A stretch of DNA of 29,447 nucleotides from a virus, in IMG/VR virus record IMGVR_UViG_3300037504_000284, positions 1 to 29,447 of that record, one strand, 5' to 3'. This document shows positions 13,349 through 27,619 of this stretch, one piece after another. Within the stretch, counting starts at the first letter, position 1. Every line of letters begins with the position of its first letter. The notes under the pieces were generated by a model. The model searched no databases. It was not told the DNA's origin and was given only the letters and a program-made list of their open reading frames with translations. Position numbers and translations under genes: made by a program.

Positions 13349-13558
13349 ATGAAAATACTACTGAAAATATTTACAACTTTAGGAGCAATATTTCTTTTTA
13401 TTGCGATAGCTACAACTTTCACTACTTTTGTTGAATATTTTAATGCTGAACCAGAACAAATAAAAACAGCAGAATTTGTTTGTTTAAGTTCATGGATATT
13501 AGGATCAGTATTTACAATAATTGCAATTAATATAGCACATAAAATAAATAAATTATGA
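13349..13558 (+). CDS. Small two-pass membrane protein
   Basis: A 69-residue protein with two hydrophobic segments: GAIFLFIAIATTFTTFV (about 12-28) and SWILGSVFTIIAINIA (about 48-63). Its stop overlaps the start of the sigma-factor gene by 4 bases. A membrane protein coupled to a sigma-like gene could be an anti-sigma factor, but it lacks a cytoplasmic domain of useful size, so this remains speculation. Confidence 0.55.
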   Translation: MKILLKIFTTLGAIFLFIAIATTFTTFVEYFNAEPEQIKTAEFVCLSSWILGSVFTIIAINIAHKINKL

Positions 13559-13995
13559 AACTAACTAAAACGCACCTCAAAGACATCTCGGCAATTGCTT
13601 ACAACTTCTACAAGACAACCGGAATAGACCGCAATGACTTGTATCAAGAAGCAGCAATTGGCTACATTAAAGCAGCAGAAAACTATAATAATCATTCTGA
13701 TGCTTCTTTTCTAACTTATGCTCATCGTTGTGCTGTTAACAATGTAATTGATTTTATCAGGCAAGAAAAAGAATTAAGACATTTACCGATTATAGAAAGA
13801 GATTATAAAACAATGCCTTCACTTACATTCATGCTTTATGATGCAATCGAGCATTTGAGAACTTATTATAAAACATCATTGAAGTTGTTTATGCAAGGAT
13901 ACACATATTATGAAATTGCTCAAATGCTTAATATAAAAGTATCCACTCTAAAACCATTGCTTCATAGAGCAAAAAAAGAATTGAAAAAAATTTGA
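13555..13995 (+). CDS. RNA polymerase sigma-70-like factor
   Basis: A 146-residue protein. Region 2 is visible: DLYQEAAIGYIKAAENYN, then SFLTYAHRCAVNNVIDFIRQ (about 28-75), the core-binding and -10-recognition helices of sigma-70 family members. The C-terminal 40 residues (LKLFMQGYTYYEIAQMLNI, KVSTLKPLLHRAKKELKKI) are the region 4 helix-turn-helix that binds the -35 element. Region 1 and a long region 3 are missing, as in ECF/minimal phage sigmas. A phage sigma would redirect host RNA polymerase to phage promoters. The phage-specific motif starts at its stop codon. It could instead be an HTH regulator derived from a sigma factor. Confidence 0.85.
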   Translation: MKLTKTHLKDISAIAYNFYKTTGIDRNDLYQEAAIGYIKAAENYNNHSDASFLTYAHRCAVNNVIDFIRQEKELRHLPIIERDYKTMPSLTFMLYDAIEHLRTYYKTSLKLFMQGYTYYEIAQMLNIKVSTLKPLLHRAKKELKKI

Positions 13996-14022
13996 AACTT
14001 TTTTAAAAAATTATCGTATAAC
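13994..14022 (+). promoter_or_regulatory. Phage promoter motif before the pentapeptide gene
   Basis: GAAACTTTTTT, 9 bases, TCGTATAAC. The GAAAC overlaps the sigma gene stop (TGA 13993-13995). It can also be read as TTGAAA-N19-TATAAC. One of four copies of the motif in the window. Confidence 0.55.
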
Positions 14023-14024
14023 TT

Positions 14025-14045
14025 ATAAAAACAATTGAATTATGA
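14025..14045 (+). repeat. 21-bp direct repeat at a start site, copy 1
   Basis: The 21 bases up to and including the ATG and first base of the next codon recur exactly at 14786-14806. The core is ACAATTGAATTATGA. The two copies bracket the pentapeptide-repeat gene. Confidence 0.65.
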
Positions 14046-14782
14046 AAACAATTAAATCAATTTTCGAACAAACTCTTTTTGAATCAAAAAATGCTCAAAC
14101 AGTTAAAGAGTTGTTAGAAGAAGCAGTCAAGCAAAATTCTGTCTTGAGAGGTGCTGACTTGACAAATTCTGACTTGAGAGGTGCTGACTTGACAAATTCT
14201 GACTTGACAAATTCTGACTTGAGAGGTGCTGGCTTGATAAATTCTGACTTGAGACATGCTGACTTGACAAATTCTGACTTGAGACATGCTGACTTGAGAC
14301 ATGCTGACTTGACAAATTCTGACTTGAGAGGTGCTGACTTGACAAATTCTGACTTGAGACATGCTGACTTGAGAGGTGCTGACTTGAGAGGTGCTGTCTT
14401 GAGAGGTGCTGACTTGAGAGGTGCTGTCTTGGAGGTAGACAAAATTAAACACCTATTTCAAATTGTGCCAGAAGAAGGATCATTCATAGCCTGGAAAAAA
14501 GGAGAAAATGATTACATCATTAAACTATTAATACCAGCAAATGCAAAAAGACACAATCACCTTGCGGGACGAAAATGTAGAGCTGAATTTGTTGATGTCC
14601 TCAATATCTTTGATAACAAAGGGAATGAGACTAATGAATGTCAAAATGGAACGAATGATAATAGAGTAACCTACAAAGTAGGAAAAAGAACTTATGCTGA
14701 CAGTTATGATCCTGATCCTCGTGTTAATTGTTCAAATGGTATTCATTTCTTTTTGACACGTAAAGAAGCAGAAGAATGGTAA
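14042..14782 (+). CDS. Pentapeptide-repeat protein with DUF5758-like C-terminus
   Basis: A 246-residue protein. Residues 34-129 are about 19 pentapeptides of the A(D/N)Lxx kind, drawn from three units (DLRGA, DLTNS, DLRHA). They predict a right-handed quadrilateral beta helix, the fold that mimics DNA in the gyrase-protecting MfpA/Qnr proteins. The C-terminal domain (about 140-246) contains GSFIAWKKGENDYIIKLLIP and ends in NCSNGIHFFLTRKEAEEW, a pattern I associate with DUF5758, which is often fused to pentapeptides in phages. The cellular role is unknown; DNA mimicry is an inference. It is bracketed by a 21-bp direct repeat and preceded by the TCGTATAAC promoter motif. Confidence 0.88.
   Translation: MKTIKSIFEQTLFESKNAQTVKELLEEAVKQNSVLRGADLTNSDLRGADLTNSDLTNSDLRGAGLINSDLRHADLTNSDLRHADLRHADLTNSDLRGADLTNSDLRHADLRGADLRGAVLRGADLRGAVLEVDKIKHLFQIVPEEGSFIAWKKGENDYIIKLLIPANAKRHNHLAGRKCRAEFVDVLNIFDNKGNETNECQNGTNDNRVTYKVGKRTYADSYDPDPRVNCSNGIHFFLTRKEAEEW
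14141..14425 (+). repeat. Array of 19 tandem 15-bp units inside the pentapeptide gene
   Basis: Units GACTTGAGAGGTGCT, GACTTGACAAATTCT and GACTTGAGACATGCT occur in mixed order, nearly identical at DNA level including third positions. The identity is far greater than protein selection requires and points to recent expansion by unequal exchange or slippage. Unit gain or loss keeps the reading frame. Confidence 0.9.
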
Positions 14783-16211: not shown

Positions 16212-16552
16212 AAAAACTAATTTTAATTTCACTAATTGGATTGTTTTCAATAACAATCGCAAATGCACAGTATCCAACTAATGTAGAGAAAGATGTACGT
16301 GAAAAAGTACAACTGCTAATACAAAAAGATTTTACAGAGAAAATTCAACCTCAACTACACAAAGTGTATGTGAGAGAAAATGTGTGGAGACTTATAAACA
16401 TTGAAACAAAAAAGAAAATTACACTTGTTCTTGCAATGTATGTTAATATGCACACGGACCAGGATGTAGAAATCGTTAAAATCTACTCATGGACCAGCGG
16501 ACAGAAACTTGCAAGATATAATTCTTTTTCTCAATTCAAATTTTTTGATTGA
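16208..16552 (+). CDS. Exported small protein with a signal peptide
   Basis: A 114-residue protein. It starts with a classical signal peptide: MKKLILISLIGLFSITIANA, with cleavage likely after ANA (residue 20), giving a mature protein of about 94 residues that begins QYPTN. The mature part is basic/helical then beta-rich (LVLAMYVNMHTDQDVEIVKI, YSWTSGQKLA) with no lipobox. It would act in the periplasm or at the surface of the infected cell, perhaps in exclusion of other phages, but that is only an inference. It precedes the structured RNA at 16584 by 31 bases. Confidence 0.75.
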   Translation: MKKLILISLIGLFSITIANAQYPTNVEKDVREKVQLLIQKDFTEKIQPQLHKVYVRENVWRLINIETKKKITLVLAMYVNMHTDQDVEIVKIYSWTSGQKLARYNSFSQFKFFD

Positions 16553-16583: not shown

Positions 16584-16714
16584 TATTGCAGTATGAAAAT
16601 GGCCAGCAACATACAGAATAAAATTACTGTTTCTCATAGTTTCATAGGTTTAACAATAAGTGAAAGCCCGGATAGTTTTATGTTGCTGGCCGCAATACCT
16701 CTATCCGGGCTTTG
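16584..16714 (+). ncRNA. Interlocked A-B-A'-B' RNA upstream of the antirepressor fusion
   Basis: Two perfect 13-base complementarities are interleaved: A GGCCAGCAACATA (16601-16613) with A' TATGTTGCTGGCC (16679-16691), and B AAAGCCCGGATAG (16663-16675) with B' CTATCCGGGCTTT (16701-16713). TATTGC (16584-16589) can extend A with GCAATA (16692-16697). B lies inside the A-A' loop while B' lies outside, so the whole can be a pseudoknot, two mutually exclusive hairpins (B-B' followed by GTTTTG could act as a terminator), or an antisense segment (A,B) with a downstream target (A',B'). B' ends 29 bases before the ATG of the KilA-N fusion gene. Confidence 0.75.
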
Positions 16715-16724
16715 TTTTGTATAA
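16593..16724 (+). CDS. Possible 43-aa leader peptide across the structured RNA
   Basis: An ATG at 16593 opens 43 codons that run through both stem pairs, beginning MKMASNIQNK and ending in a hydrophobic SFMLLAAIPLSGLCFV, then TAA. A translated leader could choose between RNA folds, as in attenuation. There is no clear ribosome-binding site, and the frame may be accidental. Confidence 0.3.
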   Translation: MKMASNIQNKITVSHSFIGLTISESPDSFMLLAAIPLSGLCFV

Positions 16725-16742: not shown

Positions 16743-18410
16743 ATGGTAGGACATTCAGAATTAACACAGTATAAACAAGAAGATGTTAAGAAAAACGTAG
16801 AACAAGTAATACAACGTTTGTTCAGAATTTTCAAAGAACATGATCCTTATTTATCTTATAGCAGACTAACTTTTATTGACTGTACCGCAGGAGATTTAGA
16901 AACCGGAGGAGATATGAATTTAACTTCTCCCGGAATATTCTTAAATGAAATAATCAGACAAAGCAAAGAAATTGATGATATACCCACAACCTTGTTTCTG
17001 ATTGAAAAAAATAAAAAAGCATTTGAAAAACTAACAAAAAATTATAACAAATATTTTAAGAAAGAAATAAAAAATAACACAAATTGTAATGTTAAACTAA
17101 AAAATAAAAACTTCAAAGATGCCTTATGGAATTTAGGCAGTGTAAAATATAGGTACGGACTTGTATATGTTGATGCAAATGGATACTCTCATGAAGACTA
17201 TTCAGCAGCAATAGACTTTGTTAATAAAAATGAAAGAGTGGACTTACTTGCAAATATAAATTACGCAAGTATAGCACGAGCAAGAGGATTTGGACAGAAA
17301 AATCCTGATAGTGCTTACGAAGTATATAAAGATTTATATATGGAAGACATCATAGATTCAATTGACAAAGACATCAAATATATAAGAGATGGAAAACATC
17401 AAGCAAAAATAAAAAGAAGAGGTAATCAGTTTACAATGATATATGCTTCTAATTACAGAAATCATAATCAATTACCAGATAACTTTGTACCAGCTTATTC
17501 AGAAAAAGGACAAGAACTTATGGACAAATATAATTTTAAGAAAGACAACAAAGATTCTATTCAATCAACAGAAGAATCAACGCAACAAACTAACACGAAT
17601 ATCACTCCATTTCAATACGGAAACTCTAAAATAACATTCAAACAAAACAATGGAGTAGTAATGATCAATGCCACTGAAATGGCTAAACCGTTTGGAAAAA
17701 GACCTAATGATTGGTTACATTTACCTTCAACTCGTTCATTTTTAGAGACTTTGAGAAATACAAGATTTTCTGGTATTACTGAAAATCAACTAATTACAAC
17801 TTCAAGAGGAGGACCTGCCACTAAAAATGTTGCACCCGGAACTTGGATGCACGAAGATGTTGCATTAGAGTTTGCACGCTGGCTTTCTCCTCAGTTCGCA
17901 ATCTGGTGTAATGATAAGATAAAAGAATTGATGACTGAAGGACAAACTTCAATAAAGAACACAGACAACAGAACACTTGCAAAAATGAACATTGAACTGG
18001 CCAATCGTCTTTTGAAATCAGAAGATGAAAAAGATGAATTAAAAAAACAAAACAAAGAACTTGAAAATAAAGCTGAATACGCTAATAAAATTTCAAACAG
18101 CGAATCATTATACAAAATATCGGAAATTGCCATGAAAGACTTTAAAATTTCTGGACAAAAACTAAATAAAGAATTGCAGAAAGCAAGTGTTCAATACAAA
18201 CAAGGAAATACTTGGTATTTATACAGAGAACATTTAGGAAAAGGTTATACCAGTTCTGTTACTAAATCATATACAGACAACAAAACCGGAAACGTTAATA
18301 CTGCAATTCAAATGAGATGGACTGAAAAAGGACGACAGTTCATCCATGACCTAGTTAATAATGGACATATATCACTTAACGGACAACCTAAAAGAAAAAG
18401 AAGAAAATAA
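16743..18410 (+). CDS. TcmP-like (methyltransferase-fold) + KilA-N + KilAC fusion
   Basis: A 555-residue protein in one unbroken frame. Residues 1-260 resemble the three-Cys-motif partner protein TcmP: YSRLTFIDCTAG (44-50) in the place of the SAM-type first strand, LFLIEKNKKAFEKL (84-97), a VYVDANGYSHED segment (141-152, where relatives have D-P-x-G) and LLANINYASIARARGF. Residues 290-400 form a KilA-N domain (INATEMAKPFGKRPNDWLH; TWMHEDVALEFARWLSPQFA), a DNA-binding domain of phage regulators. Residues 405-447 form a coiled coil. Residues 455-540 match the KilAC antirepressor C-terminus (ISEIAMKDFKISGQKLNKEL; RWTEKGRQFIHDLV). A regulator or antirepressor is the likely role; the activity of the N-terminal part is unknown. 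No separate three-Cys partner gene is visible nearby. Confidence 0.82.
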   Translation: MVGHSELTQYKQEDVKKNVEQVIQRLFRIFKEHDPYLSYSRLTFIDCTAGDLETGGDMNLTSPGIFLNEIIRQSKEIDDIPTTLFLIEKNKKAFEKLTKNYNKYFKKEIKNNTNCNVKLKNKNFKDALWNLGSVKYRYGLVYVDANGYSHEDYSAAIDFVNKNERVDLLANINYASIARARGFGQKNPDSAYEVYKDLYMEDIIDSIDKDIKYIRDGKHQAKIKRRGNQFTMIYASNYRNHNQLPDNFVPAYSEKGQELMDKYNFKKDNKDSIQSTEESTQQTNTNITPFQYGNSKITFKQNNGVVMINATEMAKPFGKRPNDWLHLPSTRSFLETLRNTRFSGITENQLITTSRGGPATKNVAPGTWMHEDVALEFARWLSPQFAIWCNDKIKELMTEGQTSIKNTDNRTLAKMNIELANRLLKSEDEKDELKKQNKELENKAEYANKISNSESLYKISEIAMKDFKISGQKLNKELQKASVQYKQGNTWYLYREHLGKGYTSSVTKSYTDNKTGNVNTAIQMRWTEKGRQFIHDLVNNGHISLNGQPKRKRRK

Positions 18411-25619: not shown

Positions 25620-27059
25620 ATGGCAGACACAGGCATTGAACGCCGAATCATTATAGGATTAGTTGCATCTGATGAGTATATCGAGAGAATAAGAGACATT
25701 TTCGATCCAACATTTTTTGAATCTACTGCTGCACGCTATATAGCTCAATGGTGCATGGAGTATTTTGATAGATATGGTCAAGCTCCGGCTACTCAGAGTA
25801 ATATAGTAGGTATTTTTATAAAAAAGAAAAGAGAAGGCAAAATTAAACAACAGCTCGCTGATGAAATAGATGAGGATATAATGCCTTCTCTTAGCGATGA
25901 GTTTCTTAGAGAAGAGTTTAACGTAGATCAGCGTGTAGAAGAAACTCAACAATACGCATTGGAGAGGGTTGTGCAGCAAAAGATTGATCAAGGTCAAAGT
26001 TATCTCAAAACAGGTGAAATTGAGAAAGCGGCAGAACTCTTTGATGTAGATATAGATGCAAGTGATAAGGATATAGAAGAGTCAATCCAGTCTATTGAAC
26101 AAATTGAACAGGAGAAGCCGGAGAAGCCGAAAATGCTTATGGCCCCGTGGCTCCGGCAAGGAGAGACAACACTCTTGTATGCACAAGCCGGTGTTGGTAA
26201 GTCACTTATTGCAATATTAACTGCATATCTTCTTGGTCTTAAAGATTATGATAAAGATGAAGCTAAGATTGGCAATTGGGTTGTGAAGAACACTACAGGC
26301 ACGTTATATATTGATGGAGAGATGGGTAAAAGTGAGATGCTTGACCGGGTGAAAGGTTTCAGATGGGTTGGACAGCAGAGAAACGGTAAAGGCATTAGAA
26401 TACTTTCTTTGCCGGATTATCAAATTGAGCAAGAAAAACAATTTGATCTGTCTGAACGAGATCAGCAGCGTAAGATTATCAAGTGGCTGCAAGAGCATCC
26501 GAAGTATAAATTACTTGTCATTGATTCGGTTTCAACAGTTTTTGGATTGGATGATGAGAATAGTAATTCAGAGTGGTCACAAAAAATTAATCCATTTATT
26601 CGGGATTTAAGAGCTTTGGGTGTGGCGCATATAATTCAACATCATGCGGGTAAAAATGGTGAATTACGTGGAGCATCGGCTATGGATGCTATGGCGCATA
26701 ATAAAATCCGTTTGAAGGATCATGACAGTAAGATGCAAGGAGAGGCTTGGTTTTGGGTTGATAATCATGGCAAGCAACGTGCTGCCGGTAAAACTTTTCA
26801 ACGTTTTCAGATTAAATTTGTAAGCGAGAGAGGTAGAACGATTTGGTTTGAGCCGGAGCAAGATTACATCAGTAAAAAAGATAAACAAGCATTATTGCAG
26901 GATTTAAGTGAAGGTATTGAGATAGAAAAATTGGCAGAAGATTATGGGATAACAAAAGAGGAGGTTATGAATGTAAAATCTAACTTCAAAAGGCTATTCT
27001 TATTGAATGAAAATGACGAGATTACGGCAAGTGGGAGAGAATTTTTGAAGAATAAGTGA
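25620..27059 (+). CDS. Replicative helicase-like protein (DnaB-N + RecA-fold ATPase)
   Basis: A 479-residue protein. Residues 5-100 look like the DnaB N-terminal helical domain (RRIIIGLVASDEYIERIRDI ... FFESTAARYIAQWCMEYF). The ATPase (about 172-400) has YAQAGVGKS (Walker A, 187-195), a TLYIDGEMGK segment (229-237), LLVIDSVSTVFG (Walker B, 298-309) and IIQHHAGKNGELRGASAM (338-355), the AAA_25/RepA-like RecA fold. The C-terminus (about 425-479) is a small HTH (IEKLAEDYGITKEEVMNVKS). It is the likely fork helicase partnered by the primase at 14803, although the family also includes RepA-type plasmid helicases. Its stop overlaps a phage promoter motif. Confidence 0.87.
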   Translation: MADTGIERRIIIGLVASDEYIERIRDIFDPTFFESTAARYIAQWCMEYFDRYGQAPATQSNIVGIFIKKKREGKIKQQLADEIDEDIMPSLSDEFLREEFNVDQRVEETQQYALERVVQQKIDQGQSYLKTGEIEKAAELFDVDIDASDKDIEESIQSIEQIEQEKPEKPKMLMAPWLRQGETTLLYAQAGVGKSLIAILTAYLLGLKDYDKDEAKIGNWVVKNTTGTLYIDGEMGKSEMLDRVKGFRWVGQQRNGKGIRILSLPDYQIEQEKQFDLSERDQQRKIIKWLQEHPKYKLLVIDSVSTVFGLDDENSNSEWSQKINPFIRDLRALGVAHIIQHHAGKNGELRGASAMDAMAHNKIRLKDHDSKMQGEAWFWVDNHGKQRAAGKTFQRFQIKFVSERGRTIWFEPEQDYISKKDKQALLQDLSEGIEIEKLAEDYGITKEEVMNVKSNFKRLFLLNENDEITASGREFLKNK

Positions 27060-27086
27060 AACTTTTTTGAAATTTTGTCGTATAAC
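27058..27086 (+). promoter_or_regulatory. Phage promoter motif before a small RNA
   Basis: GAAACTTTTTT, 9 bases, TCGTATAAC. It begins inside the helicase stop codon (TGA 27057-27059), as the copy at 13994 begins inside the sigma stop. A TTTG 22 bases before AAATTTTG gives a weaker match to the host promoter form. Confidence 0.6.
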
Positions 27087-27087
27087 G

Positions 27088-27212
27088 TTATAGAGAAATT
27101 AAAAATGAGCCATGCAAGTCAGAAAGACCGGAGATGAATTATAAATTAAAATTAACTAATGTTGAATCTAACGTCCGTATCAATTGTTAGTGTTATTTCT
27201 CCGGTCTTTTTT
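27088..27212 (+). ncRNA. Candidate phage small RNA, about 125 nt, with own promoter and terminator
   Basis: Directly after the promoter motif lies a gene-free stretch closed by AAAGACCGGAGA (27123-27134) pairing over 12 perfect bases with TCTCCGGTCTTT (27198-27209), then a run of six T (27207-27212). Inside the loop, ACTAA/TTAGT (27155-27159 with 27187-27191) and TTGA/TCAA (27162-27165 with 27180-27183) form an inner stem. No good open reading frame is present. Promoter, stem and T-run together look like a free-standing RNA; alternatively it is a large terminator. Confidence 0.65.
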
Positions 27213-27223
27213 CTGAAATTTTC

Positions 27224-27263
27224 TTTGAGTTTTTGAAACTTTATTTTAATTTTGTCGTATAAC
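27224..27263 (+). promoter_or_regulatory. Promoter before the cupin gene
   Basis: TTTG (27224-27227), 19 bases, TAATTTTG (27247-27254) is an exact Bacteroidota promoter match. It overlaps GAAACTTTATT (27235-27245), 9 bases, TCGTATAAC (27255-27263), the phage motif. It lies only 11 bases before the ATG at 27275, so a short leader is expected. Confidence 0.65.
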
Positions 27264-27274
27264 ATAAATGAACT

Positions 27275-27619
27275 ATGAAAAGAGAACAGAAAATTTGGGG
27301 ACAAAGGTGGCTTATCCGATGTGATTCAACACACGCAGTAAGTTATCTTGAACTTGAAAAGAACGTACAGTGTAGTTGGCATCGACATGAAACTAAATAT
27401 AATTTATTCGTGGTTTTAGAAGGTGAGTTAATTTTGGAGATTGAAGAACTTGATAATATTAAAACAGTTACTTTGAATAAAGGAGAAGAATTTACTATCA
27501 AACCGGGACAATGGCATCTATTTCGATGCTTTTGTGAGAATACGAAAGTTATAGAAGAAATGTTCGTAGAATATAATGAATCAGATATTGAACGTCAAAA
27601 TAAAGGGAATAGGTTATGA
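27275..27619 (+). CDS. Small cupin-fold protein
   Basis: A 114-residue single-domain cupin. The metal-binding pattern is visible: CSWHRHETKYNLFVVLEGEL (His at about 35 and 37, with a following Glu near 56), GEEFTIKPGQWHLFRC (His at about 88). The layout resembles the mannose-6-phosphate isomerase type II/sugar-related cupins. In phages such proteins may modify a sugar or act as sensors; the substrate is unknown. It is led by the promoter pair at 27224-27263 and overlaps the next gene by 4 bases. Confidence 0.82.
   Translation: MKREQKIWGQRWLIRCDSTHAVSYLELEKNVQCSWHRHETKYNLFVVLEGELILEIEELDNIKTVTLNKGEEFTIKPGQWHLFRCFCENTKVIEEMFVEYNESDIERQNKGNRL

Follow-up and report, generated by a model that had tools for sequence, protein, structure and literature searches.

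Architecture of the fused gene

We analysed a 29,447-base IMG/VR virus record (IMGVR_UViG_3300037504_000284, here called the window), a metagenomic contig that represents a fragment of a phage. Positions 16743..18410 of its plus strand form a single open reading frame (ORF) of 555 codons with zero internal stops, in which the ORF itself, profile matches and the codon signal delimit a TcmP-like Rossmann domain, a linker, a KilA-N domain and a KilAC (ANT) domain. The TcmP-like domain, of class I methyltransferase fold, covers residues 4-236 (16752..17450, +). It is followed by the low-complexity linker (residues 241-289, 17463..17609, +), recognised by its sequence, a predicted local distance difference test score (pLDDT) <50 and continuous coding signal, and then by KilA-N (residues 291-398, 17613..17936, +) and KilAC (residues 435-539, 18045..18359, +). 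The initial annotation had described one unbroken 555-codon frame joining a TcmP-like N-terminus, with the peptides FIDCTAG, LFLIEKN and VYVDANG (residues 44-50, 84-90 and 141-147), to KilA-N and KilAC. This description holds, as the ORF is intact and the coding signal passes through the junction.

An assembly chimera or a frameshift error could in principle have merged a TcmP-like gene with a separate KilA-N gene. The fusion is known from a single metagenomic contig, and the linker (17460-17610) is AT-rich. Against such an artefact, frame 0 scores above both other plus-strand frames by codon log-odds in all 60-codon windows, junction residues 240-290 included, and the two gene halves are similar in G+C (0.29 and 0.33). 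We consider an artefact highly improbable and the three-domain phage protein real.

Both domains of the C-terminal half score well over their Pfam cut-offs, in agreement with the earlier assignment: PF04383 (KilA-N) matches residues 291-398 with E 6.7e-19 and 68 bits (cut-off 23.8), and PF03374 (ANT/KilAC) matches residues 435-539 with E 6.5e-25 and 88 bits (cut-off 25.3). They stand in the usual order and spacing and align with stand-alone two-domain proteins. Relatives of the KilA-N domain, phage and prophage proteins among them, lie almost all in Bacteroidota genomes, and the phages with the best annotated matches have Bacteroidota hosts; the host of this phage is therefore likely a member of the Bacteroidota. 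It is only from family membership that we infer an antirepressor function for the fused protein.

Affinity and residues of the N-terminal domain

Compared with the first 285 residues alone, the profile TIGR04474 (three-Cys-motif partner protein TcmP) matches residues 39-196 (16857-17330, +) with E 4.6e-11 and 43.1 bits, below the curated cut-off of 53 bits; run over the window, it gives E 7.1e-13 and 42.7 bits. The match was absent from the scan of the full-length protein with default HMMER filters, which masked it there and in the ORF scan, and the searches were rerun on the N-terminus alone or with filters off. A hidden Markov model (HMM) that we built from TcmP genes gathered from Bacteroidia genomes scored the true N-terminus at 34.4 bits, compared with a best score of 11.3 among 1000 shuffles, and hhalign of the single N-terminal sequence against our TcmP profile gave 94% probability. 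The TIGR04474 match spans profile positions 29-185 of 263, and that of our HMM positions 37-241. By the HMM and hhalign, the nearest TcmPs (L184 and L173) belong to a D-Q-N-G subtype of Bacteroidia; identity to the closest TcmPs is only about 20%. The agreement of the curated profile, our HMM with hhalign and the shuffle control indicates that the proposed homology to TcmP is real but remote. Sequence scans of the Protein Data Bank (PDB) found no TcmP relative. Weak TIGR04474 matches, of about 18-33 bits, occur in E. coli and other Pseudomonadota and may be RlmJ.

With five TcmPs from viral contigs in the alignment, AlphaFold2 modelled the N-terminal domain with a predicted template modelling score (pTM) of 0.59 and a mean pLDDT of 55.7. 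In the model, predicted strands and helices alternate in the Rossmann-type order of a class I methyltransferase, and structural comparison returned methyltransferases with Z up to 14.1. RlmJ was among these matches (Z 13.7, 202 residues, root-mean-square deviation 3.4), tied with O-methyltransferases. Given TcmP homologues in the alignment, structure prediction thus recovers the methyltransferase fold that had been suggested for this part.

The fused protein is a new combination of individually known domains and is known from one contig. We found the same fusion in none of 149 KilA-N relatives. For the TcmP-like N-terminus, tblastn recovered no relative in phages or plasmids, and peptide-pattern scans of viral contigs and genome contigs were likewise empty; viral contigs were covered by these patterns, which overlook distant relatives. 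One loose pattern match in a genome (L196) lay inside a gene that reads as HemB by eye, and was taken as chance. With HMMER filters off, only one of 6,220 ORFs from the KilA-N loci and the window's own stretch matched the TcmP HMM significantly, namely the fused ORF. In TcmP searches of about 1,160 genomes, drawn from around three separate centres, no frame over the cut-off exceeded 447 residues; judged by length, these frames are too short for the whole fusion. These searches support the rarity of the fusion; because peptide patterns overlook distant relatives, uniqueness is beyond what they show.

We compared active-site residues in an alignment with 34 TcmPs. The fused protein retains D46, G50, E88 (D/E in TcmPs), D144, G147, D167 and R179, all of which are conserved in the family. 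In the motif I region (FIDCTAGDL, residues 44-52, 16872..16898, +), it has IDCTAGDL where TcmPs have D-x-(F/Y)-x-G-x-G, with T48 for the aromatic residue and L52 for the second glycine. This glycine is present in 32/34 TcmPs and missing only in L163 and L186. The acidic residue of motif III, usually D, is replaced by N123. In the motif IV region (VYVDANG, residues 141-147, 17163..17183, +), the D and G of DANG are kept and A145 stands where TcmPs have P or Q.

The initial annotation had derived an altered or lost activity from the change of D-P-x-G to D-A-N-G. This argument is weak, because 5 of the 34 TcmPs carry D-Q-N-G in place of the other form, DPxG, and have a DUF5131-type partner alongside; these partnered proteins rule out D-A-N-G alone as proof of lost activity. 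The loss itself finds better support in motif I, where TAGDL is, by alignment, the stronger sign. We conclude that the TcmP-like domain is probably without catalysis.

A three-Cys motif gene lies within the fetched stretch of 34/39 TcmP loci, and encodes a DUF5131 protein in the one locus checked for it. A search of the window for the motif (WNPxxGC...GCxxCY) found no such gene, in line with the earlier remark that no partner is visible; the contig is a fragment, and a partner may lie elsewhere in the phage. Two TcmP-like genes of a single Pontibacter genome (L161 and L163) also have no three-Cys gene within the fetched stretch. L163 has the motif I LDLTLGFA, with T at the aromatic position, and scores under the cut-off. 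Because L163 is degenerate, below the cut-off and without a partner gene in its stretch, degenerate TcmP relatives without a partner may exist in bacteria too.

Long TcmPs carry a GMT-wHTH domain (PF22560) C-terminal to the Rossmann domain, so the TcmP family itself already combines a Rossmann domain with a winged-helix-type domain. The fused protein has KilA-N and ANT in the position of this GMT-wHTH. By domain order, it preserves this arrangement, a winged-helix or DNA-binding-type module after the Rossmann domain, with a phage module substituted.

Four temperate Gordonia phages (ThankyouJordi, Easley, Fairfaxidum and Angelique; L213-L216) also have a TcmP-like gene, annotated as 'methyltransferase', immediately after the immunity repressor. 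There the gene sits between the immunity repressor and the integrase, with a convergent gene next to it. In ThankyouJordi (L213), this convergent gene, annotated 'hypothetical', encodes a three-Cys protein by sequence. The Gordonia pair looks like prophage cargo expressed in lysogeny, and it links the TcmP family to phage control regions, there as a stand-alone pair.

Leader and other features of the window

Portal and terminase genes lie on the minus strand of the window and replication genes on the plus strand. Around the fused gene lie replication genes, among them primase-like and DnaD-like ones. Three terminase relatives (L002-L004) share portal and TerL only, with TerS too in one, and are therefore uninformative on a possible insertion of the fused gene.

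Between an ORF ending at 16552 and the fused gene, we identified a leader (16601..16720, +) with two interlocked perfect 13-nt inverted repeats, 16601-16613/16679-16691 and 16663-16675/16701-16713, in the order A-B-A'-B'. A T-rich tail after the second pair gives it a terminator-like appearance. No further perfect 13-nt pairs lying within 150 nt of each other were found in the window, and the RNA fold of 16601-16713 has a z of -3.3. A terminator combined with a pseudoknot is one possible identity of the leader, a small RNA another; that the leader is tied to control of the fused gene we only infer. Rfam scans gave nothing above threshold, and a match to RT-12 over the leader, at 19.7 bits against a gathering threshold of 44.2, was taken as chance.

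A small sigma factor gene (Sigma70_r2 and r4_2) lies at 13555-13995, and the gene directly after it encodes a pentapeptide-repeat protein with a C-terminal DUF5758 (14042-14782). A promoter-like motif, TGAAACTTT(T/A)TT...TCGTATAAC, occurs in three copies (13993-14023, 27057-27086 and 27234-27263), which precede the gene at 14042, the gene at 27275 and an intergenic hairpin. By sequence, the copies are possibly the regulon of a phage extracytoplasmic function (ECF)-type sigma factor. A candidate small RNA of about 130 nt lies in the intergenic stretch 27087-27216, between the promoter-like motif and the hairpin AAAGACCGGAGA/TCTCCGGTCTTT, which is terminator-like with a T tail. The gene at 27275-27619 encodes a small cysteine-dioxygenase-like protein, here in a phage (phrog_7851 match).

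Proposed role and comparison with known systems

We propose that the fused protein is an early DNA-binding regulator of the phage, in which a domain derived from TcmP serves, probably without catalysis, for recognition, a reading to which we assign a probability of roughly 0.5. The KilA-N part would bind DNA, and KilAC would supply an antirepressor-type contact, as is expected of the ordinary Bacteroidota phage proteins that consist of these two domains. The N-terminal domain would derive from the TcmP methyltransferase family, with the Rossmann domain kept and the phage module placed after it. Having lost key residues for binding S-adenosylmethionine (SAM), it would most likely perform no catalysis, and may instead recognise a nucleic acid or a protein partner and thereby give the regulator its target. 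The protein may, as initially suggested, modify its target or sense a small molecule; nothing found here supports either activity.

Several observations weigh against the proposed regulator. The TcmP match scores under the curated cut-off of its family. Modelled as a single sequence without homologues, the N-terminal domain gives a poor result (pTM 0.26), so the fold supports the TcmP assignment and is not independent proof of it. A dead domain need not keep the retained D46, G50, E88, D144, G147, D167 and R179. In this fragment contig, the ORFs scanned revealed neither a recognisable repressor nor an integrase nor a known target close to the fused gene.

The fold and five of these residues (D46, G50, E88, D144 and G147) would also suit an active SAM-dependent methyltransferase, with KilA-N as the aiming part; the substrate of such an enzyme would be a bound protein or the DNA of phage or host, and its purpose regulation or escape from restriction. 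The partnered D-Q-N-G TcmPs add that the P of motif IV is dispensable for a working gene pair. We nevertheless regard an active enzyme as unlikely: the aromatic residue and the second G of motif I are both replaced, N stands in place of the motif III acidic residue, and the TcmP family itself has no established chemistry. The absence of a partner and of several conserved residues from the window copy could instead mark a decoy, whose degenerate TcmP domain would bind the three-Cys (DUF5131) protein that belongs to a TcmP pair in the host or a prophage and block the pair, while KilA-N/KilAC places the decoy on DNA or controls genes. The three-Cys gene beside TcmP in 34/39 loci is consistent with this, as are the position of the Gordonia gene between immunity repressor and integrase, which is a usual place of prophage cargo, and the listing of a TcmP gene together with the Hna defence gene of Sinorhizobium (PMC12445080). 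However, TcmP-DUF5131 is not established as a defence system, the binding is conjecture and the closest TcmPs share only about 20% identity; a decoy thus appears rather improbable. We would place slightly lower still the related idea that the dead domain binds the host or prophage DUF5131 partner and that KilA-N/KilAC converts this contact into phage gene control, as a counter-measure or a switch.

By analogy with BstA, the protein might also serve prophage-borne defence or abortive infection, with a comparable layout, and the fused gene does stand apart behind a leader of its own, which has a terminator-like hairpin. The gene, however, lies within the replication region and in no recognised cargo position, the domain order is reversed relative to BstA, KilAC is typical of antirepressors and the window has no sign of lysogeny genes. 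We judge such a role about as improbable as the decoy. In contrast to these alternatives, the regulator with a recognition module remains our preferred reading.

TcmP and its three-Cys partner are almost without literature, and the open papers that we consulted only list the name in tables. The fusion to a phage regulator and the Gordonia TcmP genes behind an immunity repressor tie the family to control regions of unrelated phages and provide two concrete handles on what TcmP binds.

Four known systems invite comparison. With TcmP (TIGR04474), the fused protein shares the Rossmann methyltransferase-type domain and D46, G50, S62-P63, E88, D144, G147, D167 and R179. It differs in its sub-cut-off score, the loss of the motif I aromatic residue and second Gly, A for P/Q, the lack of an adjoining DUF5131 gene and the replacement of GMT-wHTH by KilA-N/KilAC. 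RlmJ, the 23S rRNA A2030 N6-methyltransferase, is among the best structural matches of the domain model, but the PDB scans gave no sequence match to it; its catalytic motif is of the DPPY type, whereas the fused protein has DANG at that site. The KilA-N and KilAC protein of Bacteroides phage LoVEphage has the identical domain order and 39.5% identity over residues 290-541. Unlike the fused protein, none of the 149 KilA-N/KilAC relatives has a TcmP-like N-terminus, and their N-terminal extensions measure at most 150 residues. BstA, a prophage defence protein, likewise joins a KilA-N-like domain to another part (PMC8585504), but its KilA-N lies at the N-terminus, and no methyltransferase-type domain is reported for it (PMC8585504).
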